Assembly (NCBI GenBank): GCA_902592345.1
Contig: CACJEE010000010.1
Coordinates: forward strand, 1-38,226
Origin: an uncultured Alphaproteobacteria bacterium
Lineage (GTDB): Bacteria > Pseudomonadota > Alphaproteobacteria > HIMB59 > GCA-002718135
DNA: 38,226 bases
Reading direction: 5' to 3'
The notes under the pieces are model-generated. The model did no database searches. It had not been told where the DNA came from and saw only the letters and a list, made by a program, of their open reading frames with translations. This document shows, in pieces, positions 8,449-26,974 of this stretch (within the stretch, counting starts at the first letter, position 1; each line of letters starts with the position of its first letter). The translations under genes were made by a program, and so were the position numbers.

Positions 8449-9381
8449 TTAGAGATCGTTAACTGTTTGCTTAATATAAGGGCTGAACAAACCTTTTTTC
8501 TTTGCGATTGATATTTGCTTATTTCTATCAATTAAACTCTTTTTCTTAGACTCACTTATTTTACCATAGCAATTAGGACATGAAACACCCTTTATGAATT
8601 TTTTAGATTTAATTTGATCTTGAGATAAGGGATATCTACATGCATGACACAGTTCATATGTTCCATTTTTTAGTTCATTTTTTAAAGAAACTCTATTATC
8701 AAAAACAAAACATTCTCCATTCCATAATGAATTTTTCTTAGTTGTTTTTTCCAAATAACTCAAAATACCGCCATGAAGCTGATTAACATTTTTAAAGCCT
8801 TTTTTTATCATATAAGATGAAATTTTCTCACATCTGATTCCTCCAGTGCAAAACATTGCAATTTTTTTATTTTTAGATCGCTTTAAGTCATTTTTTAAAT
8901 AGTTTTTAAATTCTGTAAAACTTTTTGTATTTGGGTTAATTGAGTCTTTAAAAGTACCCATCTTAACCTCAAAGTCATTTCTCACATCAATTAAAATAGT
9001 TTCTTTATCTGAGATAAAATCATTCCATTCCTCTGGTCTGATTTTTTTTCCAGTAATATTTTCAGGATCAGCAATTTTAGTCCTCAAAGTAACTATTTCC
9101 TTTTTATATCTAACTTTGAGTCTAAAAAATGGCATAAATTTAGAATACGAATATTTTGGATTGTATTTATTAAATCCCATATTCAGAATGCAGGATTCAA
9201 ATTTACTAATATTATTAGATTTTCCAGCAATAGTTCCGTTAATTCCCTCATCTGCTAAAATTATTGTACCTTTTATTTTGTTAAATTTACAAAGATTAGA
9301 GAGTTCATTTTTAATTTGAATAATATCTTCTATTTTTTTAAATTGATAAAAAGTAACGATGGTAAATGTAGAATTTATCAT
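8449..9381 (-). CDS. trhO: tRNA uridine(34) hydroxylase TrhO (rhodanese-like)
   Basis: This 310-residue protein has an N-terminal ferredoxin-like domain (ILADEGINGTIAG, 41-53) and a rhodanese domain with ILIDVRNDFEVKMGTF (129-144) and the active loop CTGGIRCEK (178-186), the signature of the YceA/TrhO family. TrhO makes 5-hydroxyuridine at the tRNA wobble position in an O2-dependent reaction. Two CxxC pairs (C245/C248 and C268/C271) form a likely zinc knuckle near the C-terminus. It is divergent from the MetF-like gene across only 36 bp. A weak ribosome-binding site (AGGTGA) precedes the ATG. Confidence 0.93.
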   Translation of the reverse strand: MINSTFTIVTFYQFKKIEDIIQIKNELSNLCKFNKIKGTIILADEGINGTIAGKSNNISKFESCILNMGFNKYNPKYSYSKFMPFFRLKVRYKKEIVTLRTKIADPENITGKKIRPEEWNDFISDKETILIDVRNDFEVKMGTFKDSINPNTKSFTEFKNYLKNDLKRSKNKKIAMFCTGGIRCEKISSYMIKKGFKNVNQLHGGILSYLEKTTKKNSLWNGECFVFDNRVSLKNELKNGTYELCHACRYPLSQDQIKSKKFIKGVSCPNCYGKISESKKKSLIDRNKQISIAKKKGLFSPYIKQTVNDL

Positions 9382-9390
9382 TTATTCACC

Positions 9391-9400
9391 TATTATAATA
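9391..9400. promoter_or_regulatory. Palindromic -10-like box between divergent trhO and metF-like genes
   Basis: TATTATAATA is a perfect 10-bp palindrome in the 36-bp divergent gap. It contains TATAAT on each strand (9394-9399 on +, 9397-9392 on -), so one site could serve both directions. No good -35 hexamer is visible. On the minus strand it partly abuts the trhO ribosome-binding site, so it fits the + gene better (predicted start near 9406, ATG at 9418). Confidence 0.35.
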
Positions 9401-9417
9401 ACCTAATAATTATTTCT

Positions 9418-10302
9418 ATGATAAATAATAATATTAAGAATGTTCGTGATCTTTTATCTAATTGCTCCATTGAAACTACTCCTAATGTATATGCAAAATA
9501 TGGTAGTTTTGCTGATTTAGTTTCTATAAAAAACAATATTTACATCACTTATCTGCCTAATGAAGATATGAATAAGGTTATTGATACAGCTAGAAAACTT
9601 AAACTTGAAGGATACAGTGTGATCCCCCATCTACCTGCCAGAACAATTGCAAATCATGAAGAGTTAAAAAAATACATACAAGCTCTTGCAGAAGATTGTG
9701 GATGTTCAAAAATTTTAGTTATAGGTGGTGGAGGTAGTCAAAAAGGTAATATAATAAGTTCTATTGAAATTTTAGAAACAGATTTGTTATCAAAATATAA
9801 TTTTAAAGAAGTTGGTGTTGCTGGTCATCCTGAAGGAAACCCAGATGTCAAACAAAATGATTTAGATAATGCTATAATTCAAAAAAATCAGTTTTCAAAA
9901 AAAGCAGATTTTAAAATGTATTTAGCTACTCAGTTTTTTTTTGAAGCAAAATCTTTAAAAGAATGGGAACTACATCTTGATAAATTAAATAACAATCTTG
10001 ATATACATGCAGGTATACCTGGGCCCGCTACTTTAAAAACTTTGATTAGTTACGCTACATCGTGCGGTATTGGTAACTCTATTAGATTTTTATCAAAACA
10101 GGCATTAAATATTACTAAGTTGGCAACAACTAGAAGCCCTGATAAATTAATATATGACCTGGCTAGCTATCAAATAGAAAATCCAGACACAAAATTAAAA
10201 AAAATACATTTTTATGCATTTGGAGGAATTAAAAAAACTAGCGACTGGTTAAAAACACTAAATAAACCTGATTTGTCTTATAATGGTCTTACATTTGAAT
10301 AA
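9418..10302 (+). CDS. Methylenetetrahydrofolate reductase-like protein
   Basis: From the ATG at 9418 this is a 294-residue TIM-barrel protein of the MetF family, binding FAD and folate. The opening SIETTPNVYAK, the VAGHPEGNPDV segment, MYLATQFFFEA and HAGIPGPATLKTLI correspond to conserved MetF strands and folate/FAD contacts. Upstream in-frame codons (to 9316) lie inside divergent trhO and the promoter region, so they are rejected. Canonical MetF makes methyl-THF for methionine. Here fhs, sarcosine oxidase and a DmdA-like demethylase are nearby, so it may instead oxidise methyl-THF to methylene-THF during methyl catabolism. That direction is inference. Confidence 0.82.
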   Translation: MINNNIKNVRDLLSNCSIETTPNVYAKYGSFADLVSIKNNIYITYLPNEDMNKVIDTARKLKLEGYSVIPHLPARTIANHEELKKYIQALAEDCGCSKILVIGGGGSQKGNIISSIEILETDLLSKYNFKEVGVAGHPEGNPDVKQNDLDNAIIQKNQFSKKADFKMYLATQFFFEAKSLKEWELHLDKLNNNLDIHAGIPGPATLKTLISYATSCGIGNSIRFLSKQALNITKLATTRSPDKLIYDLASYQIENPDTKLKKIHFYAFGGIKKTSDWLKTLNKPDLSYNGLTFE

Positions 10303-12093: not shown

Positions 12094-13356
12094 ATGATTA
12101 AAAGATCAAAAAAATATTCTGTATTTTCACTCGTGAAAAATGCGTTAAGTTACCATGAAAATTGGCAACCAGCATGGCGTAATCCTGAAATTAAAAAGGA
12201 ATATGATGCTATTATCGTAGGTGGTGGAGGACATGGATTAACAACAGCATATTATTTAGCAAAAAATCATGGAATCAAAAACATAGCTGTTGTTGAAAAA
12301 GGTTGGATAGGTGGTGGGAACACTGGAAGAAACACAACAATTATAAGATCAAATTATCTTTGGGATCAAAGCGCAGCTATATATGATCATGCTTTAAAGT
12401 TATGGGAGGGTATGTCTCAAGAACTTAATTATAATGTAATGTTTTCACAAAGAGGTGTAATGAATGTTGCTCACAACTTACATGATGTGAGAGAATTAAA
12501 AAGAAGATGGCATGCAAATCGCTTAAATGGAGTAGATTGTGAATGGTTAAATACACAAGAAGTTAAAAAATTCTGTCCTGTAATTAATACGTCACCCAAT
12601 ATTCGTTATCCAGTTTTGGGTGCTACTTTACAAAGACGTGCTGGAACTGCAAGACACGATGCTGTTGCATGGGGCTATGCAAGAGGAGCTGATGCTATGG
12701 GTGTTGATATAATTCAAAATTGTGAAGTTACGGGAATTAACATAAATAATGGAAATGTTATTGGAATTGAAACTACCAGAGGTACAATTAACTCCAAAAA
12801 AATTGGTGTTGTTTCCGCAGGCCATAGTAGTGTGATTGCAAAGATGGTAGGTATAAAACTACCACTTGAAAGCAGACCTCTTCAGGCACTTGTATCTGAA
12901 CCAGTAAAACCTGTCATTGATACTGTAGTAATGTCAAACACTATACATGCATATGTATCTCAATCAGATAAAGGTGAGCTAGTAATTGGAGCTGGAACAG
13001 ATGGTTATAATTCGTATTCTCAACGTGGTGGTTTTAATATTGTTGAAGATACAATAATGGCAATTGTGGAATTATTTCCTCTTTTTTCAAGAATGAAAAT
13101 GCTTCGTCACTGGGGGGGAATTGTTGATATATGCCCTGACGCAAGTCCAATCATCAGCAAAACACATATTAATGGTCTATACTTTAATTGTGGCTGGGGA
13201 ACTGGCGGGTTTAAGGCTACTCCTGGCTCAGGTTGGGTATTTGCACATACAATTGCAAATGATCAGCCGCATGCTCTTAATGCTCCATTCAGTATTAATA
13301 GGTTTTCAAGTGGTGAGTTAGTTGATGAACATGGCGCAGCTGCTGTAGCTCACTAA
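12094..13356 (+). CDS. soxB: Sarcosine oxidase, beta subunit (heterotetrameric)
   Basis: This 420-residue flavoprotein subunit carries the oxidase centre that demethylates sarcosine to glycine. The FAD Rossmann loop is [16 protein letters not shown] (41-56). H188 in [15 protein letters not shown] is the counterpart of the histidine (H173 in characterised enzymes) that holds FMN covalently. The C-terminal region [14 protein letters not shown] fits the second flavin contact. It is the first of four contiguous subunit genes in the standard order B-D-A-G and ends one base before soxD. Together they form a cytoplasmic alpha-beta-gamma-delta complex. Confidence 0.97.
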
Positions 13357-13357
13357 A

Positions 13358-13705
13358 ATGTTACTAATTAATTGTCCTTATTGTGGTGAGCGAGAACAAG
13401 AAGAATTTTCATGTGGTGGAGAAGCACATATTGAAAGACCTAAAAATCCACCTGATTTAAATGATGATCAATGGGCTGATTATTTGTTCCTTCGTCAAAA
13501 TATCAAAGGGTTGCAATATGAAAGGTGGAATCATGCTTTTGGTTGTAGACAGTGGTTTAACGTAGCAAGAAATACTGCAACTGATGAAATTCTTGCAGTA
13601 TACAAAATGGGTGAAAAACCACCAAAACTTGAATCTAACAATCCCATAACACCTTGTGGCGAACCTGCTATTGGTTCAGGGAATTTTTCTACATCAAAAA
13701 AATAA
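13358..13705 (+). CDS. soxD: Sarcosine oxidase, delta subunit
   Basis: This 115-residue subunit carries the family's zinc site. C6 and C9 (CPYCG) plus H59 and C63 (NHAFGCRQWF) lie at the canonical residue numbers. The conserved WADYLFLRQN segment is also present. The delta subunit is structural and coordinates Zn2+ in the complex. It starts one base after the soxB stop and ends 5 bp before the soxA ATG, so translation is probably coupled. The C-terminal tail after about residue 95 is variable in the family. Confidence 0.97.
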   Translation: MLLINCPYCGEREQEEFSCGGEAHIERPKNPPDLNDDQWADYLFLRQNIKGLQYERWNHAFGCRQWFNVARNTATDEILAVYKMGEKPPKLESNNPITPCGEPAIGSGNFSTSKK

Positions 13706-13710
13706 TAAAA

Positions 13711-16686
13711 ATGCGTTTACAAAATAATAAAAATCTTGGTCAAAATAAAAAAATAAGTTTTTTCTTTGATGGAAAAAAGTATTATGGCTATGAAGGTGAT
13801 ACACTAGCATCAGCCTTACTCTCTAATGGTGTTTATCTTGTTGGAAGAAGTTTTAAATATCATAGACCAAGAGGAATAATTTCAGCAGGTTGTGAAGAAC
13901 CCAATGGTATTGTCCAATTAGAGCTTAATGAATTTACTGAACCTAATAGAAGGGCAACAGAAGTTATTTTATATGATGGATTAATAGCTAAATCTCAAAA
14001 TAGATGGCCAAGTGTGAAATATGACATTGGAGCAATTAATGACTTGCTTGCACCATTTTTTCCAGCTGGCTTTTATTATAAAACATTTATGTGGCCACCT
14101 AAATTTTGGAAAACTTATGAGCACTTTATTCGTCATGCTGCTGGATTAGGCTATTCTCCAACAAAAGAAGATCCACATAAATATGAACATTATCATTTTC
14201 ATTGTGACACATTGATTGTTGGTAGTGGTGTTAGTGGTTTGTATGCTGCGCAGATAGCGGCAGCAAAAAATCTAAAAGTTTTATTAGTAGAGCAAGAGAG
14301 TCAAACTGGTGGATCAATTTTATCGTCCAATAATTATGACAACAAAATTAATGGTAAAAGTCAAACTGAATGGAAGAATAAAATTTTAGATGAATTAAAT
14401 AAATTAAATAATGTAAGAATTATAACAGACACCACGCTTTTTGCTTATATGCACTATAATTACTTACTAGCAATTCAAGATCTTCAACCAAGAAAGGGTA
14501 TAGATAAAGCAAATTCAATAAGACAAGTTGTGTGGAAAATAAGAGCAAAAAAAGTAATTTTAGCAACTGGTGCAATAGAGCGACCACTTACCTTTAATAA
14601 CAATGACAGACCAGGTATCATGCTTGCTAAAAGTGTAAGTAAATATTTAAATGGTTATGGTATTAATTTAGGAAAGCAAATTGTTATCTTTACAAATAAT
14701 GATAGTGCCTATCAAACAGCAATAGATTGTCATTATCAGAATGTTAATGTCGTTGCAGTAATTGATGTAAGAAATAATCTAGAAGGTGAACTTCCTTTAA
14801 AAGTTAAGCAATTGGGTATTAAAATATATACTGGCTCAATAATTTCAAACACTTCAGGTAGAAAAAAATTAAAAACTGTTCATATAAAAAAAATAAATCA
14901 AAAAAATATTGAAATTTTAAACTGTGATCTTTTATGTATATCAGGAGGATGGTCTCCCACTGTACATTTATTTACTCAATCCAGAGGAAAATTAAAGTTT
15001 AGAGACGAAGATTCTTGTTTTATACCTCATCAATCTCATCAAAAAACACTTTCAATTGGTTCCTGCAATGGAGTTTTTGATTTAAAAAATATTCTCAATG
15101 AAACATATAATTCAGTTAATAATTTTCTAAATACGAATGATAAAGATAGTTTAGATGGAAAGATATATGATGCTGAATTAAATAAAACTGGCAAGCAGGA
15201 AAATGCTTGGTTAATGGATAAAGAAAATATTAGCAAATCTAAAATGTTTGTTGATTTTCAAAATGATGTAACAGCAAAAGATATCAAAATAGCCTTATCA
15301 GAAGGTTTCCAATCAATAGAGCATGTCAAAAGATACACAACTAACGGAATGGCCACTGATCAAGGTAAAACGAGCAATGTTAATGCGCTTGGAATAATCA
15401 GTGAACTTTCTGGACAGGATATTTCCAATCTAGGTACTACAACTTTTAGACTACCCTATACACCTGTTACATTTGGAGCAATGGCAGGTAGATTTGTAAA
15501 AGAATTTTTTGACATTGAGAGAACAACACCTATTCATTCATGGCATACAAATAATAACGCATTATTTGAAGATGTTGGGCAATGGAAAAGACCTTGGTAT
15601 TATCCAAAAAATAATGAAACAATGGATGAAGCTGTTAATAGAGAAGTCAAAGCAACAAGGGATAGTCTTGGAATTTTAGATGCGTCAACATTGGGAAAGA
15701 TTGATTTAAAAGGTCGAGACGTAAGTGAATTTTTAAATCGTGTTTATACAAATGCATGGTCTAAGTTAGCTATCGGCAAATGTCGTTACGGTGTAATGCT
15801 TGGTGATGATGGTATGGTTATTGACGATGGGGTGACAACCCGCTTGGGAGAGCATCATTATGTGATGACTACAACAACTGGTAATGCAGCCAGTGTAATG
15901 GGTAAACTTGAGGACTGGTTGCAAACAGAATGGCCTGAACTAGAAGTTTATCTTACATCTGTAACTGAACAATTTGGAACGATCAGTTTAAATGGTCCAA
16001 ATAGTAGAAAAATAGTAGAGTCACTTTTTCCTAATCAAAATTTTTCTAGTGCAAGCTTTCCTCATATGAGTTTTAAAGAACTAAAAATAGATGGAGTATC
16101 ATGTAGAGTTATGAGAATTAGTTTTACTGGTGAAATTTGTTATGAAATTAACATTCCCTCAAGTTATGCTCTTAGTTTATGGAATAAATGTATAAGCCTA
16201 GGAGAAAACTATAACATTACTCCATATGGAACAGAGGCAATGCATGTTCTAAGAGCAGAAAAAGGTTATATTATTGTTGGACAAGAGACTGATGGTTCAG
16301 TGACTCCAATTGACCTAGATATGAATTGGATAGTCAGTAAAAAGAAATACGATTTTATAGGTAAAAGAGCGCTTAATCGAAGTGATACAGTGAAAGAAAA
16401 TAGAAAACAACTAGTAGGTATACTAACTATTGACCCATCAATAGTATTAGAGGAAGGGTCTCAATTAGTTGAGGTTGAAACTTCTTTACCAATGCCTATG
16501 GTTGGTCACATTACATCAAGTTACTACTCACCAAATTTAGGTCGTTCAATAGCTCTTGGTTTAGTTCAAAGTGGGACTAAGAAAAAAGGAACAAAGCTTA
16601 TTGTTCCTACAGACAATAAAAGTATTGAAGTTGAAATTACAAGTCCTGTTTTTATAGACCCTGAAAATGAAAGATTATTTGCATGA
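13711..16686 (+). CDS. soxA: Sarcosine oxidase, alpha subunit
   Basis: From ATG 13711 this is a 991-residue multidomain subunit; an upstream in-frame ATG (13654) lies inside soxD and is rejected. The N-terminal ferredoxin-like domain (about 15-75) is followed by a dinucleotide-binding domain with LIVGSGVSGLYAAQIAAA (168-185) and a GcvT-type folate-binding C-terminal half (about 600-990). The alpha subunit binds NAD and THF; the methyl group leaves as 5,10-methylene-THF when THF is present. Length and domain order are normal, with no frameshift. Its stop overlaps the soxG ATG by 4 bp. Confidence 0.96.
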   Translation: MRLQNNKNLGQNKKISFFFDGKKYYGYEGDTLASALLSNGVYLVGRSFKYHRPRGIISAGCEEPNGIVQLELNEFTEPNRRATEVILYDGLIAKSQNRWPSVKYDIGAINDLLAPFFPAGFYYKTFMWPPKFWKTYEHFIRHAAGLGYSPTKEDPHKYEHYHFHCDTLIVGSGVSGLYAAQIAAAKNLKVLLVEQESQTGGSILSSNNYDNKINGKSQTEWKNKILDELNKLNNVRIITDTTLFAYMHYNYLLAIQDLQPRKGIDKANSIRQVVWKIRAKKVILATGAIERPLTFNNNDRPGIMLAKSVSKYLNGYGINLGKQIVIFTNNDSAYQTAIDCHYQNVNVVAVIDVRNNLEGELPLKVKQLGIKIYTGSIISNTSGRKKLKTVHIKKINQKNIEILNCDLLCISGGWSPTVHLFTQSRGKLKFRDEDSCFIPHQSHQKTLSIGSCNGVFDLKNILNETYNSVNNFLNTNDKDSLDGKIYDAELNKTGKQENAWLMDKENISKSKMFVDFQNDVTAKDIKIALSEGFQSIEHVKRYTTNGMATDQGKTSNVNALGIISELSGQDISNLGTTTFRLPYTPVTFGAMAGRFVKEFFDIERTTPIHSWHTNNNALFEDVGQWKRPWYYPKNNETMDEAVNREVKATRDSLGILDASTLGKIDLKGRDVSEFLNRVYTNAWSKLAIGKCRYGVMLGDDGMVIDDGVTTRLGEHHYVMTTTTGNAASVMGKLEDWLQTEWPELEVYLTSVTEQFGTISLNGPNSRKIVESLFPNQNFSSASFPHMSFKELKIDGVSCRVMRISFTGEICYEINIPSSYALSLWNKCISLGENYNITPYGTEAMHVLRAEKGYIIVGQETDGSVTPIDLDMNWIVSKKKYDFIGKRALNRSDTVKENRKQLVGILTIDPSIVLEEGSQLVEVETSLPMPMVGHITSSYYSPNLGRSIALGLVQSGTKKKGTKLIVPTDNKSIEVEITSPVFIDPENERLFA

Positions 16687-17261
16687 CTTTAAAAAGAAAC
16701 ACAGTATTTGAAGATGTCAAAATAGAAAAAAATGGCATATCTATTCAAGAGTTACCCTTTGTTGAAAAGATTAATCTTCGTGGTGATACAACAGATAGGG
16801 ATTTTATGAGTAATGCTGGAGCAGTTCTTGACATTTTAATTCCAACAGAACCTAATACAAAAATACAAAATAAAGATTTACAAGTAATTTGGCTTAGTCC
16901 TAATGAGTGGCTTCTTAGTTTTTTTAATGAAAGTCATTTTTTTAGAATACTTGAAGAATTAAATAATAAATTAAATCCTGAAAAAACAAGTATTACAGAT
17001 ATCTCAGAAAATAAAACTGTTATAAGGATTGAGGGCAATCATACTACAGAGTTGCTTAGAAAATTCATAGTCCTAGACATTGATAATGCTCTCAATAGCA
17101 ATTTAAGAGTTGCTCAAACAATTTTTATAAAAATACCTGTACTAATAATTCGCAACCATAATGATCAAGAAAAACAAAGCTTTGATATTCATATAAACAG
17201 ATCGCACTCTAAGTATTTAAGGGATTTGTTATTAGATGGTTGTAATCAGTTTATAAACTAA
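16683..17261 (+). CDS. soxG: Sarcosine oxidase, gamma subunit
   Basis: The 192-residue subunit is a GcvT-fold protein that packs against the folate domain of the alpha subunit. Visible features are INLRGD near residue 30, VIWLSPNEWLLSF around residues 69-81, and the C-terminal IHINRSHSKYLRDLLLDG, all characteristic of SoxG. It overlaps soxA by 4 bp and is the last gene of the operon. Only 2 bp separate its stop from that of the convergent coiled-coil gene, and no hairpin terminator is visible at the junction. Confidence 0.94.
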   Translation: MTLKRNTVFEDVKIEKNGISIQELPFVEKINLRGDTTDRDFMSNAGAVLDILIPTEPNTKIQNKDLQVIWLSPNEWLLSFFNESHFFRILEELNNKLNPEKTSITDISENKTVIRIEGNHTTELLRKFIVLDIDNALNSNLRVAQTIFIKIPVLIIRNHNDQEKQSFDIHINRSHSKYLRDLLLDGCNQFIN

Positions 17262-20728: not shown

Positions 20729-21682
20729 TTATTTTTCTATAGAATTTAATTTGTCTAATTCTGAAGAAAGTTGAGGTAATGCTTCAAATAAATCAGCACT
20801 CAACCCATAATCAGCAACATTAAAGATAGGTGCCTCTTCATCTTTATTTATAGCAACGATAATTTTACTTTCTTTCATACCAGCAAGATGTTGAATGGCT
20901 CCAGATATGCCGACCGCTATATATAGGTCGGGAACTACTACTTTGCCAGTTTGACCTACCTGATAATCATTACTTACATATCCTGCATCAACTGCAGCTC
21001 TAGATGCACCTATAGCTGCATTTAATTTATCTGCAATATCACTTATTAATTTGAAATTATCGGCACTTTGCAATCCTCTTCCTCCTGATATAACAATTCT
21101 TGCTGTACTTAGTTCAGGTCTATCTGATTTTGACTCTTCACGATCAACAAATTCTGTGTGATTTTCAGATGAATCAAAATTTATTGCTTCAACAATTCCT
21201 GAACCACCTTCTTTTGCAATAACATCAAATGAGGTTGGACGAATTGTAATAACTTTCTTGGAGTCATTTGACTTAACAGTAGCAAGTGCATTGCCAGCAT
21301 AGATTGGTCTTACAAAAGTATCTTCACTCTCAATATTGATGACGTCACTTATTTGGGCAACATCTAATTTAACTGCAACTCTTGGCATAACATTTTTTCC
21401 AAATGTTGTTGCAGGTGCAAAAATATGAGAATAGTTCTCAGCAATAGAAAAAATAACAGGGTCTATTTTTTCAGCTATAGCATGTTCATAATTTTGATCA
21501 TCTAATGACAGTACTTTTGTCACATATTGATAATTTGCAATTTCTTTTGAAATATTCTCAATATTATTACCTATTACCAAAACTTCAATTGCATTACCTA
21601 ATTTTGAAGCTGCACTTATTGTATTTAATGTAGATGATTTTACTTCCTCATTATTATGTTCTGCTAAAATTAAGATGCTCAT
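20729..21682 (-). CDS. etfA: Electron transfer flavoprotein, alpha subunit
   Basis: The 317-residue alpha subunit carries the FAD of ETF. The FAD domain shows [12 protein letters not shown] (199-210), [16 protein letters not shown] (243-258) and [12 protein letters not shown] (258-269), the classical ETF-alpha signature. It accepts electrons from acyl-CoA and from dimethylglycine/sarcosine dehydrogenases. Its ATG overlaps the etfB stop by 4 bp. Its position just after a dimethylglycine-type dehydrogenase marks that enzyme as a likely main donor. Confidence 0.97.
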
Positions 21683-22428
21683 ATAACTTTTGCCTCATAT
21701 TTTAATTTTTGAACTAATTCAGCAACATCAGCAACCATCACTCCTTTTTGTCTAGTTGGTGGTTCAGATATTTTTATATTCTCAATTCTAGGTTTAATAT
21801 CAATACCCAGCTCTTCAGCCGACTTAATATCAATTGGTTTTTTCTTTGCTTTCATAATATTTGGTAAAGAAGCGTATCTTGGCTCATTTAATCTTAAATC
21901 GCATGATGCTACAAAAGGCATCTTCACTTTTATTCTCTCGAGACCCTCATCTATTTCTCTAGTGACAATTGCAGTATTTTCTTCTATTTCAATTTTTGAA
22001 GCAAATGTTGCCTGTGGCCAATTAAGCAGAGCGCTAGTCATTTGAGCGGTTTGGTTTGAATCATCATCAATTGCCTGTTTACCCATCAATAATAAACCTG
22101 GTTGTTCAATTTCTACAATTTTAGCAACTATCTTTGATACTGATAACGGCTCAATATCATCATTAGCTTTAATAATTATTCCTCTATCAGCTCCCATAGC
22201 AAGTGCAGTACGAATAGTTTCCTGACATTTTTCTGCTCCAACTGATAAAATTATTATTTCATCAGCTTTTCCAGCTTCTTTTATTCTTAGCGCTTCCTCT
22301 ACTGCATTTTCATCAGGAGGATTCATTGACATTTTTACATTTTCTTTTTCTACACCAGAATTATCTGCTTTAACCCTAACTTGAACATTATAATCAATAA
22401 CTCTTTTTACAGTAACTAAGATTTTCAT
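21679..22428 (-). CDS. etfB: Electron transfer flavoprotein, beta subunit
   Basis: The 249-residue beta subunit forms the ETF heterodimer and binds AMP. Conserved segments are [14 protein letters not shown] (7-20), [16 protein letters not shown] (36-51), and [15 protein letters not shown] (116-130), the last including the AMP-contact loop. The C-terminal arm [20 protein letters not shown] is the recognition-loop region that contacts dehydrogenase partners. It begins 3 bp after the dehydrogenase stop codon and overlaps etfA by 4 bp. Confidence 0.97.
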
Positions 22429-22431
22429 TTA

Positions 22432-24867
22432 CTAAGCTCTAATTTTTTCATTCATTGGATCATATGGACTATCCTCTATAACTACAACTTTATGTTTTTT
22501 ATCTAAAATATCCATTTCTAGTTCTGTTCCAATTTTACTAAATTTAGGTTTGACCATAGCAATTGCAAGTGATTTTTTCACCCTAAATCCATAGTTACCT
22601 CCTGTCGCACGTCCAACAACTTTTCCATTACTATAAATAGCATTATTACCTAATGCATCAGCATCATTTATATCAAAAACTTCTAAAGTAACCATTGTAT
22701 TATCAAACCCATCTTGTTGCCATTTAACCAGAGCATCTCTTCCAATAAAATTACCTTTATTTAAATGCACAAATCTATCAAGTCCAGATTCAAAAGCAGC
22801 ATACTCAATTGACATTTCAGTGCCTACAAGCTTGTATGTCTTTTCAAGTCTAAGGCTATCCATTGCTCTTATTCCAAAAGGCTTAACTCCAAATTCTTTA
22901 CCAGCTTCTATTAATTTATCAAATATATGATTTTGATATTCAATTGGATGATGAAGTTCCCATCCTAATTCACCGACAAAGTTCATTCTCATTGCAATTG
23001 AAGGAGCTAATCCAACATCTATTTTTTGTGCAGATAACCATGGAAATGCCTGATTAGAAAAATCAGCATTAGATATTTTGGTAAGTAAATCTCTTGATCT
23101 CGGTCCAGCCACAACTAGAACACCAATACTATTTGTTAGATTTTCAAAGGTTACTGATCTATCATTTGGCATCCATTTTTTTATCCAATCGTGATCAAGT
23201 CTTTGGAAAGCTCCTGCTGAAACTAAATAAAAAGAATCATTGGATTCTTTTGCTATTGTAAATTCAGAGTGCACTCCTCCTTTTGTATTTAAGGCATGAC
23301 ATAAATTAACTCTTCCATTTTTTTGAGGCAATTTATTTGAAACCAAATTATCAAGAAAATCATTTGCTCCTGGCCCAGAGATTCTACATTTTGCAAATGC
23401 AGTCATATCAAGTATACCAACATTGTTTTGCACATTTAAACATTCATTGCCAACATGAGTAAACCAATTTGATCTCCTAAAAGACCAATTATCTACTTGT
23501 TCAATATCTTTTGGGGCAAACCAATTTGCTCTCTCCCAACCAAATTTCTGACCAAATACTGCTCCTAATTTTTTTAAACGATCATAACAAGGGGCCTGTC
23601 TTAGAGGTCTGCCAGCTTCTCTTTCTTCATCTGGGTAGTGGACTGTGAAAACATTTGCATAAGCTTCTTCATTTTTTTCAATTAGAAAAGATTTTGTGGC
23701 ATAATCTCCAAAACGCCTTGGATCAACTCCCAGCATATCAATGGTAGGCTCTCCATCAACTATCCATTCACCTAGTTGCCAACCTGCGCCTCCTGCTGCT
23801 GTTATTCCAAAACTATGACCTTCATTTATCCAAAAATTTTTTAAACCCCAAGCAGGGCCAACAATAGGACTTCCATCTGGTGTATAGCAGATAGCACCAT
23901 TGTAAACTTTTTTAACACCAACTTCTCCAAATACTGGAACTCTATGAATTGCAGATTCTATGTGTGGTTCAATTCTTTCAATATCTTCTTGAAATAATTC
24001 AAACTCAGAATTTTGACTTGGACCATCTACATAACAAGCAGGGGCTCCTTTTTCATAAGGTCCAAGAATTAATCCTCCTCTTTCCTCTCGCATATACCAA
24101 GAACTATCAGAATCTCGCAACACACCCATCTCAGGTAAACCTTGTTCTTTTCTTTTTTGTATTTCAGGATGAGGTTCAGTTACAATGTATTGATGTTCAA
24201 CAGGTATTACAGGAATATCTAAACCAACCATCATTCCGGTTTGTCTTGCAAAATTTCCAGTGCAAGAGACTACATGCTCACACTCTATATTTCCCTTATC
24301 AGTTTCAACAGACCACATTTCATTTTCTAACTGTTTGATACCAGTTACATTTGTGTTTCTGTAAATTTCAGCCCCCTTATCTCTAGCGCCTTTTGCTAAA
24401 GCTTGTGTTAAATCTGCTGGTTGTATGTATCCATCTTCAGGATGTTGAATAGCTCCAATTAAACCTTCTGTGTTACAAAGTGGCCAAATCTTTTTAACTT
24501 CTTCAGGAGTTAAAAAATTTACTTTAACTCCGATAGTTTTAGCTACTGCTGCATATTGATGATATTCATCCATGCGATCTTGAGTTGTTGCCAAACGAAT
24601 ATTACTTACAACACTAAAACCTACATTTTGTCCTGTTTCTTCTTCTAGAGTTTTGTAAAAATCAACTGCATATTTATGAAGTTGACCAACTGAATAACTC
24701 ATATTAAATAAAGGAAGGAGGCCTGCTGCATGCCAGGTTGATCCTGAGGTGAGCTCTTTTCTTTCTACTAAAACAACATCGTCCCAACCTTTTTTAGCGA
24801 GATGGTAAAGAACACTCACTCCAACAACACCGCCGCCTACTACAACTACTTTAGTTTTTGTCTTCAT
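22432..24867 (-). CDS. Dimethylglycine/sarcosine dehydrogenase family flavoprotein
   Basis: The 811-residue two-domain protein has an N-terminal FAD oxidase-like domain (VVVVGGGVVGVSVLYHLA, 7-24) and a C-terminal GcvT-type folate domain (about 430-811). H46 in SGSTWHAAGLL is the counterpart of the histidine that covalently binds FAD in mammalian dimethylglycine dehydrogenase. The enzyme should oxidise an N-methyl group and hand the carbon to THF as methylene-THF, with electrons going to ETF, whose genes follow 3 bp later. Dimethylglycine and sarcosine cannot be told apart from sequence alone. It is divergent from the dsbA-like gene across 58 bp. Confidence 0.92.
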   Translation of the reverse strand: MKTKTKVVVVGGGVVGVSVLYHLAKKGWDDVVLVERKELTSGSTWHAAGLLPLFNMSYSVGQLHKYAVDFYKTLEEETGQNVGFSVVSNIRLATTQDRMDEYHQYAAVAKTIGVKVNFLTPEEVKKIWPLCNTEGLIGAIQHPEDGYIQPADLTQALAKGARDKGAEIYRNTNVTGIKQLENEMWSVETDKGNIECEHVVSCTGNFARQTGMMVGLDIPVIPVEHQYIVTEPHPEIQKRKEQGLPEMGVLRDSDSSWYMREERGGLILGPYEKGAPACYVDGPSQNSEFELFQEDIERIEPHIESAIHRVPVFGEVGVKKVYNGAICYTPDGSPIVGPAWGLKNFWINEGHSFGITAAGGAGWQLGEWIVDGEPTIDMLGVDPRRFGDYATKSFLIEKNEEAYANVFTVHYPDEEREAGRPLRQAPCYDRLKKLGAVFGQKFGWERANWFAPKDIEQVDNWSFRRSNWFTHVGNECLNVQNNVGILDMTAFAKCRISGPGANDFLDNLVSNKLPQKNGRVNLCHALNTKGGVHSEFTIAKESNDSFYLVSAGAFQRLDHDWIKKWMPNDRSVTFENLTNSIGVLVVAGPRSRDLLTKISNADFSNQAFPWLSAQKIDVGLAPSIAMRMNFVGELGWELHHPIEYQNHIFDKLIEAGKEFGVKPFGIRAMDSLRLEKTYKLVGTEMSIEYAAFESGLDRFVHLNKGNFIGRDALVKWQQDGFDNTMVTLEVFDINDADALGNNAIYSNGKVVGRATGGNYGFRVKKSLAIAMVKPKFSKIGTELEMDILDKKHKVVVIEDSPYDPMNEKIRA

Positions 24868-25589: not shown

Positions 25590-26945
25590 TTATGCTTTTG
25601 AAACTTCTCTAGTGTTCGCGTTGTAAGATTCTGTAAATGGTATAGAAACAACTTCAGCATCTACAGGAACACCTGGTGAATCAGCATATTCATCTGGAAG
25701 ATGAACTTTGAATTTTTGGCCAACTTTTCCAATTGGGAAACCATTATTGCTAAGAGTTCCATCAAAGGGAACATAACCCATAGCAATATTTCTTTTTTGT
25801 TCTGGATGGTACCATGGTGAAGTAATATAGCCACAAGGATCCCCTCCTTCAGCAGGAGAAACTAACCAAAAATCAGGAGCATATTCCTCAATTGGTTTTC
25901 CTCCTAATACCATTCCTACTAACTGAAGTTTGTAAGGTTTATTTCCTGAAGTAATTTCTTTTTTCATTTTCTCCAGAGCCTCTTTTCCAATATAGTCACT
26001 AGATTTATTCCATTCTCCTACACCAGAAAGAGATACCTGATATCCTAAATTACATTGAAAAGGATTATGCTGGTTATCCATATCCTGACCCCAAGACAAA
26101 ATTCCAGCTTGAATTCTTCTATGGTGAGCTGGGGCTATTACCATTAAATTATGCTTTTTTCCTGCATCCAATACAGCATTCCACATATCATCTGCATATA
26201 GAGTAGCGTCATAAAGGTAAATTTCAAAACCTGCTGCTCCAGAAAAACCTGTTTGAGAAATTACACATTTTCTTCCGCCAACTTTTGCTTCAGCCAAACC
26301 ATAAAAAGGCATACCGTCTATGTCTACTTGATCGCCTATTAAGTCTTTCATTAATGCATGAGCTTTTGGACCTTGAATTTGCACTGGACAAACATCAATT
26401 TCATCAATTTCAACATCAAATTTTTTGTCGTGATTGACTCCTTGTAAATATAATCCAATATCAGAATCGGATAATGAGAACCAGAATTCATCTTTTGCAA
26501 CTCTTAAAAGAATTGGATCATTTAAAACCCCACCCATATGATTACAAAGAATAACGTATCTAGCCGCTCTAACAGATCCGTCTGCTTTCATGACTGGTAT
26601 TCTTGTTGCGTCACGAGTAATAACGTAATCTGTAAATGCTTCAGCATCTGGGCCTTTTACTTGAATTTGTCTCTCAACTGCAACGTTCCACATTGTAACG
26701 TGATTCTTTATTGCTTCATATTCTACCATTGCTCCACCATCTTCAGGTTTTACATAACCCCTTGGATGATAGACACGATTGTAGACAGTAGCTCTCCAAC
26801 ATCCAGCTTCCATAGAAAGATGCCAATATGGAGATTTTCTAACACGTGTTGAAATTAACATTTTAACAGGTGTTGAACCACTCTGCCTTAGATTATATGG
26901 GACCTTTCTATCTGATTGATCCACTGATGTAACATGTTTAATCAT
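25590..26945 (-). CDS. DmdA-like GcvT-family THF methyltransferase/demethylase
   Basis: This 451-residue aminomethyltransferase-family protein resembles the DMSP demethylase DmdA more than glycine cleavage T protein. Shared patterns are STRVRKSPY (32-40), ERQIQVKGPDA (91-101), GGVLNDPI (138-145), VQIQGPKA (188-195), GFSGAAGFEIY (233-243) and ILSWGQDMD (282-290). DmdA moves a methyl group from dimethylsulfoniopropionate to THF. This protein is roughly 80 residues longer than characterised DmdA, and its neighbours are N-methyl catabolism genes. The substrate could therefore be DMSP, a betaine or another methylated osmolyte. A strong AAGGAG site precedes the ATG. Confidence 0.78.
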   Translation of the reverse strand: MIKHVTSVDQSDRKVPYNLRQSGSTPVKMLISTRVRKSPYWHLSMEAGCWRATVYNRVYHPRGYVKPEDGGAMVEYEAIKNHVTMWNVAVERQIQVKGPDAEAFTDYVITRDATRIPVMKADGSVRAARYVILCNHMGGVLNDPILLRVAKDEFWFSLSDSDIGLYLQGVNHDKKFDVEIDEIDVCPVQIQGPKAHALMKDLIGDQVDIDGMPFYGLAEAKVGGRKCVISQTGFSGAAGFEIYLYDATLYADDMWNAVLDAGKKHNLMVIAPAHHRRIQAGILSWGQDMDNQHNPFQCNLGYQVSLSGVGEWNKSSDYIGKEALEKMKKEITSGNKPYKLQLVGMVLGGKPIEEYAPDFWLVSPAEGGDPCGYITSPWYHPEQKRNIAMGYVPFDGTLSNNGFPIGKVGQKFKVHLPDEYADSPGVPVDAEVVSIPFTESYNANTREVSKA

Positions 26946-26974
26946 GCTTAACTCCTTAAATAAATAATAATTCC

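Follow-up and report, generated by a model that had tools for sequence, protein, structure and literature searches.

Glycine betaine is among the most abundant marine osmolytes. In SAR11, the first betaine demethylation was credited to BHMT alone in a 2025 study (PMC12478193), and the BHMT of P. ubique is under SAM riboswitches (PMC5069961). Because one methionine is formed per betaine and because of the SAM riboswitch control, BHMT fits methionine supply better than bulk oxidation. In haloarchaea, Anderson et al. described DMGO genes near BCCT genes and raised the use of betaine, with the first enzyme left unnamed (PMC3102087). A gene of SAR11 strain HTCC1062, SAR11_1265, was listed as an aminomethyltransferase gene beside metF (SAR11_1264), related to DmdA and with an unknown substrate as of 2011, and MMPA, which carries the second methyl of DMSP, was guessed to be this substrate (Sun et al. 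2011, PMC3160333). In stationary phase, the transcripts of SAR11_1264 and SAR11_1265 decrease in parallel, by a factor of about 5 to 10 (PMC5069961). A PeerJ study from 2020 lists the HIMB59 protein AFS48830.1, with an F at position 171, in a “non-DmdA” clade, which was called DmgdH-like by threading; in the parts of that paper considered here, neither a substrate nor a gene context was proposed for it (PMC7487153). According to a 2026 review (PMC13001107), an MTHFR subfamily exemplified by that of SYK-6 catalyses the oxidation of methyl-THF and has co-evolved with a demethylase of the LigM type.

The window, which is the whole stretch of 38,226 nucleotides analysed here, originates from an uncultured alphaproteobacterium of the AEGEAN-169/HIMB59 type (GTDB lineage HIMB59) and contains the gene under study, with three regions inside it:

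25590 to 26945, minus strand: Q-family gene under study, ATG start, for a 451-aa DmdA-like protein, a putative THF-dependent methyltransferase
26856 to 26945, minus strand: N-terminal extension, residues 1 to 30, signature VDQSDRxVPxNLRQSG, of low confidence or flexible in the AlphaFold2 (AF2) model
26565 to 26585, minus strand: 7-residue insert at about residues 121 to 127, confined to near relatives of the window species
26217 to 26246, minus strand: F234, E241, and Y243, corresponding to W197, E204, and Y206 of DmdA in the alignment to 3tfh

“Q family” denotes the family of this open reading frame (ORF) and “Q” any of its members. The ORF is a genuine 451-aa gene, with a Shine-Dalgarno sequence (AAGGAG, 26952 to 26957) 6 nt 5' of the ATG and protein identities of 86 to 100% within the genus and 73 to 75% to the sister family. 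A promoter and terminator scan gave signals not above those in shuffled sequence, and an Rfam scan of the window gave no match.

A preliminary description of this gene had noticed a resemblance to DmdA together with a surplus of about 80 residues, and both are real. The best NCBIfam model for the 451-aa protein was that of DmdA, PRK12486 (228.5 bits, E 1.2e-67, curated cut-off 410 bits); the Q members of 20 genomes scored 228 to 275 bits with this model and an outlying copy in G076 337 bits. The best PDB sequence match was the 369-aa P. ubique DmdA, 3tfh, which is 82 residues shorter. The Pfam domain GCV_T (PF01571) was present with 124.5 bits (cut-off 25.6), and the scores stayed below the cut-offs of the models for the glycine cleavage T-protein (PRK00389, 138 versus 300 bits; TIGR00528, 118 versus 236 bits) and for LigM/DesA (NF047885, 38.8 versus 580 bits; NF047633, 35.9 versus 800 bits). 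Structure prediction yielded a DmdA-like fold: the closest solved fold to the AF2 model (pLDDT 85.8, pTM 0.86, residues 1 to 29 poorly predicted) was 3tfh (Z 44.5, rmsd 1.9 over 363 residues), in agreement with Foldseek, followed by GcvT (Z 42.4), and the value for LigM was Z 25.5.

Judged by sequence comparison, the 451-aa protein is not a DmdA and belongs to a separate family, as had been suspected. Among 233 pooled homologous ORFs, scores against the query were at least 425 bits for the Q members and at most 236 bits for the paralogs ranking next. A maximum likelihood tree of 62 proteins (LG+C20+F+G4, PMSF) placed Q in a clade with 100/100 support, outside the DmdA clade, which was itself supported by 100/100 and contained the P. 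inhibens DmdA, the SAR11 DmdAs (82 to 86% identical to 3tfh), and the DmdA of the window genome. The latter is a true DmdA, encoded on contig 23 and 80% identical to 3tfh. Q, the M group described below, and DmdA formed one clade apart from GcvT, DMGDH, and SoxA (99/94) and have the NDP and WxVAxER motifs in common. The tree tool flagged long branches among the GcvT/DMGDH outgroups, which leaves the deeper order unsure and the Q and DmdA clades unaffected.

The folate residues E204 and Y206 (3tfh numbering) were kept in 26 of 26 Q members each, and W197 was a Phe in 25 of these 26. The residue roles, folate for E178 and Y180 and DMSP for W171, were taken from PMC7487153; because E178 and Y180 correspond to E204 and Y206, whose numbers are higher by 26, W171 should be the W197 of 3tfh. 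W197 was dropped as a stand-alone diagnostic of DmdA because P. inhibens and other DmdAs, 5 of 12 bona fide DmdAs altogether, have a Tyr at this position. At more than 60 positions, a residue absent from DmdA is fixed in at least 95% of the Q family; these include W50, H60, Q231, F234, H274, R276, W285, Q287, and W378. Of these, W50, F234, H274, and W285 are candidates for a pocket that would bind the cation of betaine. Extra sequence had been claimed at three sites. The N-terminal extension and the C-terminal tail were indeed present across the whole Q family, but the supposed insert at residues 115 to 128 comprised just 7 residues in 14 of 168 Q-family ORF copies, all from near kin of the window species, and was dropped as a subfamily hallmark.

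Besides DmdA and Q, a third group of DmdA-like proteins (M) was observed in HIMB59, SAR11, and roseobacters, with these members:

L168:14660-15826, minus strand: M-group member
L169:8649-9812, minus strand: M-group member
L151:7971-9113, plus strand: M-group member

On plasmid pP88_b of Phaeobacter inhibens, an M gene is followed by genes for OsmC, enoyl-CoA hydratase, and acyl-CoA synthetase, a cluster that looks like a DMSP-type catabolic module. The Pelagibacteraceae MAG FRAM18_bin075 (L116:4288-6831, plus strand) contains a Q ortholog directly followed by a long-branch DmdA-like gene of 381 aa. In L230 and in G220:C4:69686-76254, from an AEGEAN-169 relative, a PF02574 homocysteine methyltransferase gene precedes a GcvT-like gene, with DmdA within 6 kb; the G220 genome has two DmdA copies, on C4 and C5.

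The Q family was present in 29 of 36 congeners sampled, mostly incomplete genomes, in 24 of 24 sister-family genomes sampled, in 209 of 298 Pelagibacteraceae genomes (at least 80% complete), in 19 of 385 alphaproteobacterial genomes sampled across the class (E <1e-120), and in four other genomes of the phylum. Homologs with 50 to 57% identity were located on haloarchaeal plasmids; the one of Haloarcula hispanica is HAH_RS18290 on pHH400. The Q clade spans AEGEAN-169, HIMB59, most Pelagibacteraceae, other Proteobacteria, and haloarchaea. The Q genes of the Pelagibacteraceae (81 to 83% identical) directly adjoin the single MetF gene, with the gene for DMGDH on the same side about nine genes on, which matches the spacing of SAR11_1253. 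They occupy the same place as SAR11_1265, beside the sole MetF, and by this synteny rather than by sequence, SAR11_1265 is very probably the SAR11 ortholog of the 451-aa protein. AFS48830.1 is probably the HIMB59 ortholog, and the “non-DmdA” clade, with its F for W171 and, judged from the accessions, its HIMB59 and haloarchaeal members, is probably the same as Q (PMC7487153).

The surroundings of the gene had been described as N-methyl catabolism genes, and the genes of the window bear this out:

9316 to 10302, plus strand: divergent MetF (MTHFR), with no other MetF found in this genome; PF02219; PDB 7xg9, 137 bits
10405 to 12063, plus strand: formate--tetrahydrofolate ligase (FHS); PRK13505, 905 bits versus cut-off 652
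12094 to 13356, plus strand: SoxB, sarcosine oxidase beta; TIGR01373, 718 bits versus cut-off 529
13358 to 13705, plus strand: SoxD, sarcosine oxidase delta, assigned from its position and similarity; the sox operons of L154 and L165 contain homologs
13654 to 16686, plus strand: SoxA, sarcosine oxidase alpha; TIGR01372, 1346 bits versus cut-off 1164; true start probably downstream of the listed TTG
16683 to 17261, plus strand: SoxG, sarcosine oxidase gamma; PF04268, 28.5 bits
19060 to 20688, minus strand: ETF-ubiquinone oxidoreductase (ETF-QO); Fer4_ETF_QO, ETFQO_UQ-bd
20729 to 21682, minus strand: electron transfer flavoprotein (ETF) alpha; NCBIfam and Pfam profile matches
21679 to 22428, minus strand: ETF beta; NCBIfam and Pfam profile matches
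22432 to 24867, minus strand: dimethylglycine dehydrogenase (DMGDH), mitochondrial type, 811 aa; Pfam DAO, FAO_M, GCV_T

No DMSP lyase or dmdBCD gene was among the window genes examined. The gene for DMGDH is the next one on the strand of Q, followed by those for ETF beta, ETF alpha, and ETF-QO, the electron chain serving DMGDH in mitochondria. Its product had the human DMGDH 5l46 as best PDB match, full-length with 632 bits over positions 2 to 799; since SARDH was absent among the PDB matches, the decision between DMGDH and SARDH leans also on the synteny with SAR11_1253.

DMGDH or DMGO genes were located 0 to 6 kb from Q in seven family-level lineages (about 5e-5 with a rough null), which are the window, the HIMB59 family, SAR11, G317, G421/G134/G344, G306, and G499/G592/G559. 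In HIMB59-family genomes, a single array contains the genes for SoxBDAG, a relative of dimethylglycine oxidase (1pj5, 717 bits), MetF, and Q. On haloarchaeal plasmids, Q is surrounded by varying subsets of genes for MetF, two DMGO/DMGDH-type oxidoreductases, GlyA, IlvA, FolD, FHS, formate dehydrogenase, and dihydrofolate reductase or other folate synthesis, and by a BCCT transporter gene in two records. Taken as a pathway, these genes would lead from betaine to pyruvate plus CO2, with just the first demethylase unassigned, which makes Q a candidate for this step. The haloarchaeal megaplasmids L207, L208, L209, L148, and L210 have folP, pabA/B, or dihydrofolate reductase genes near the Q homolog, and some of them add FolD, FHS, or formate dehydrogenase genes, suggesting that a self-contained folate C1 module is carried by these replicons. 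DMGDH, sarcosine oxidase, MetF, and the haloarchaeal clusters strongly suggest another methylated osmolyte as substrate of Q.

No GbcA-type Rieske protein, MtgB, or MetH was found in the AEGEAN/HIMB59-family genomes G220, G018, G028, G039, and G040, and no MtgB in the HIMB59 and SAR11 genomes tested. SAR11 Rieske oxygenase genes are located near the MetF-Q pair (L152:11332-12525, plus strand; L118:3155-4327, minus strand), with the glycine betaine monooxygenase GbcA as the nearest model, far under its cut-off. They were rejected as the general betaine demethylase because AEGEAN/HIMB59-family genomes keep Q without the Rieske gene. A DinB_2 plus FGE-sulfatase gene of the EgtB/ovothiol type (L118:5934-7148, minus strand) adjoins the MetF-Q pair in a Pelagibacteraceae genome. 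A literature search of incomplete coverage found no report of a betaine-THF methyltransferase.

A divergent MetF gene adjoins Q in the loci L154, L152, L118, L211, L213, and L214. The MetF-Q gap is 0 to 85 bp in SAR11, the HIMB59 family, G306, G786, G592, and G559, and MetF is nearby in haloarchaea; the window is an exception, with MetF 15 kb from Q and adjoining FHS. Of the 298 Pelagibacteraceae genomes, 207 had both genes, 2 had only Q, 1 had only MetF, and the rest had neither, a co-occurrence with a Fisher value of 2e-72 that is uncorrected for relatedness. A loss of the entire methylated-compound machinery may account for some of the joint absence. The Pelagibacteraceae genera g457, g99, g461, g459, and g460 are without Q and MetF and have few GcvT-family candidates at all; they may be freshwater or brackish lineages. 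The MetF proteins of the window, SAR11, and Haloarcula matched 7xg9, which we take to be the MetF of Sphingobium SYK-6, with 137, 111, and 128 bits, respectively, compared to at most 30 bits for canonical bacterial MetFs.

DMGDH, sarcosine oxidase, and glycine cleavage yield methylene-THF and do not require MetF. A DmdA-type enzyme yields 5-methyl-THF, which is oxidised by MetF or used by MetH. Because only a methyl-level product requires MetF, transfer at the methyl level is inferred for Q. In the HIMB59 and SAR11 genomes tested, no MetF other than the divergent type was found and MetH was absent, so that methyl-THF must be oxidised in these bacteria. Hence, Q is very likely a THF-dependent methyltransferase making methyl-THF.

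The proposal for the function of Q is based on the DmdA-like predicted fold, the kept folate residues, the position in a clade of its own, and the association with MetF, DMGDH, Sox, and FHS in the genomes. Q would bind THF in the GcvT fold and move an intact methyl group from a methylated osmolyte to N5, giving 5-methyl-THF. With betaine, the reaction would convert betaine plus THF into dimethylglycine plus 5-methyl-THF. Dimethylglycine would be handed to the adjacent DMGDH, with the electrons leaving via ETF and ETF-QO, and sarcosine would be used by SoxBDAG. Oxidation of 5-methyl-THF to methylene-THF would be the task of the divergent MetF, and FHS would complete the C1 oxidation with a gain of ATP. 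Glycine betaine as the donor is less certain than methyl-THF as the product. With the substrate read from the gene context, Q is more probably than not a cobalamin-free glycine betaine:THF methyltransferase of DmdA-type chemistry. Such a cobalamin-free and O2-independent enzyme may well be the catabolic entry enzyme for betaine in most SAR11, HIMB59/AEGEAN-169, and haloarchaea, either in place of BHMT or alongside it.

Several points speak against betaine. A quaternary ammonium is a worse methyl donor than a sulfonium, and we know of no THF enzyme that uses a quaternary ammonium donor without cobalamin or zinc. A PF02574 homocysteine methyltransferase-type gene, BHMT or MmuM, occurs in AEGEAN, HIMB59, and SAR11 genomes and could perform the same step; every score of these genes with the NCBIfam BHMT and MmuM models was far below the cut-off. 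Neither DMGDH nor MetF is present within about 10 kb of Q in G243, G088, G179, G423, and G359. The creatininase and aspartoacylase genes in haloarchaeal clusters are superfluous to a betaine pathway and may point to other N-methyl compounds. Growth of Haloquadratum walsbyi, which has a Q member as judged from accessions in PMC7487153, was not improved by betaine (PMC3102087).

The same chemistry may act on another betaine or onium donor, such as proline betaine, beta-alanine betaine, carnitine-derived betaine, trigonelline, dimethylsulfonioacetate, or choline. In this case, the link to MetF would stand, and dimethylglycine would not be the direct product. This agrees with a DMGDH link that is looser than the MetF link, with a 50%-identical haloarchaeal subgroup of Q that adjoins genes for an HTH regulator and an MFS transporter and has no DMGDH, and with the creatininase and aspartoacylase genes carried by several haloarchaeal clusters. 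Nevertheless, another donor is rather unlikely in view of DMGDH/DMGO, SoxBDAG, GlyA, and IlvA, which recur by Q in distant phyla and lead from dimethylglycine to pyruvate.

Glycine betaine, which is the preferred substrate, also has to be weighed against readings that tie Q to DMSP or to methylene-THF. A diverged DmdA acting as second DMSP demethylase would explain the similar fold and folate residues, and W197 is not strict in DmdAs either, but the 228 bits compared to a cut-off of 410, the position outside the DmdA clade, the true DmdA in the same genome, and the absence of dmdBCD nearby make this very improbable. Slightly less probable still is the demethylation of MMPA as speculated by Sun et al. 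for SAR11_1265, although Q is near DmdA, adjoins metF, and coexists with DmdA in SAR11 (PMC3160333). The neighbours of Q are N-methyl genes, and in G134, G306, G344, G421, and G423, no match to the DmdA model was better than Q itself; these five genomes therefore have Q and no DmdA as a source of MMPA, which indicates that Q is independent of DMSP demethylation. The lowest probability was assigned to Q as a stand-alone folate domain in an aminomethyltransferase role, trapping oxidase-released formaldehyde or iminium carbon as methylene-THF. Homologous folate domains do exist in DMGDH and SoxA, but these enzymes thus have their own already, Q is on the DmdA side of the tree and not on the GcvT side, and a methylene-level product leaves the tight pairing with MetF unexplained.

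If glycine betaine is the donor, a THF-linked betaine demethylase that is paired with a MetF working in the oxidising direction would account for the use of betaine methyl groups as an energy source in SAR11. It would assign a substrate to a gene of the SAR11 core that has been without one since 2011, supply the missing first enzyme of haloarchaeal betaine use, add a new reaction to the DmdA/GcvT superfamily, and correct databases that may class Q genes as DMSP demethylases.

In comparison to known systems, Q is closest to DmdA (P. ubique SAR11_0246, 3tfh; P. inhibens), with which it shares the GcvT fold, E204 and Y206, the NDP and WDVAxER motifs, and, presumably, the methyl transfer to THF. 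It differs from DmdA by an identity of 28 to 32%, the additional 82 residues, the Phe for W197, the separate clade, the signature residues W50, H60, H274, R276, W285, and W378 that are absent from DmdA, and MetF and DMGDH as neighbours instead of dmdBCD. The aryl O-demethylases LigM/DesA of Sphingobium SYK-6 are also THF-dependent and have a MetF partner thought to act in the oxidising direction (PMC13001107), but Q scored 39 bits with the LigM model (cut-off 580) and had a Z of 25.5 with LigM compared to 44.5 with DmdA. GbcAB, BHMT, and MtgBCD (PMC12478193) perform the step proposed for Q, betaine to dimethylglycine; they are unrelated to Q and use O2 and iron, homocysteine and zinc, and cobalamin, respectively, instead of a direct transfer to THF.
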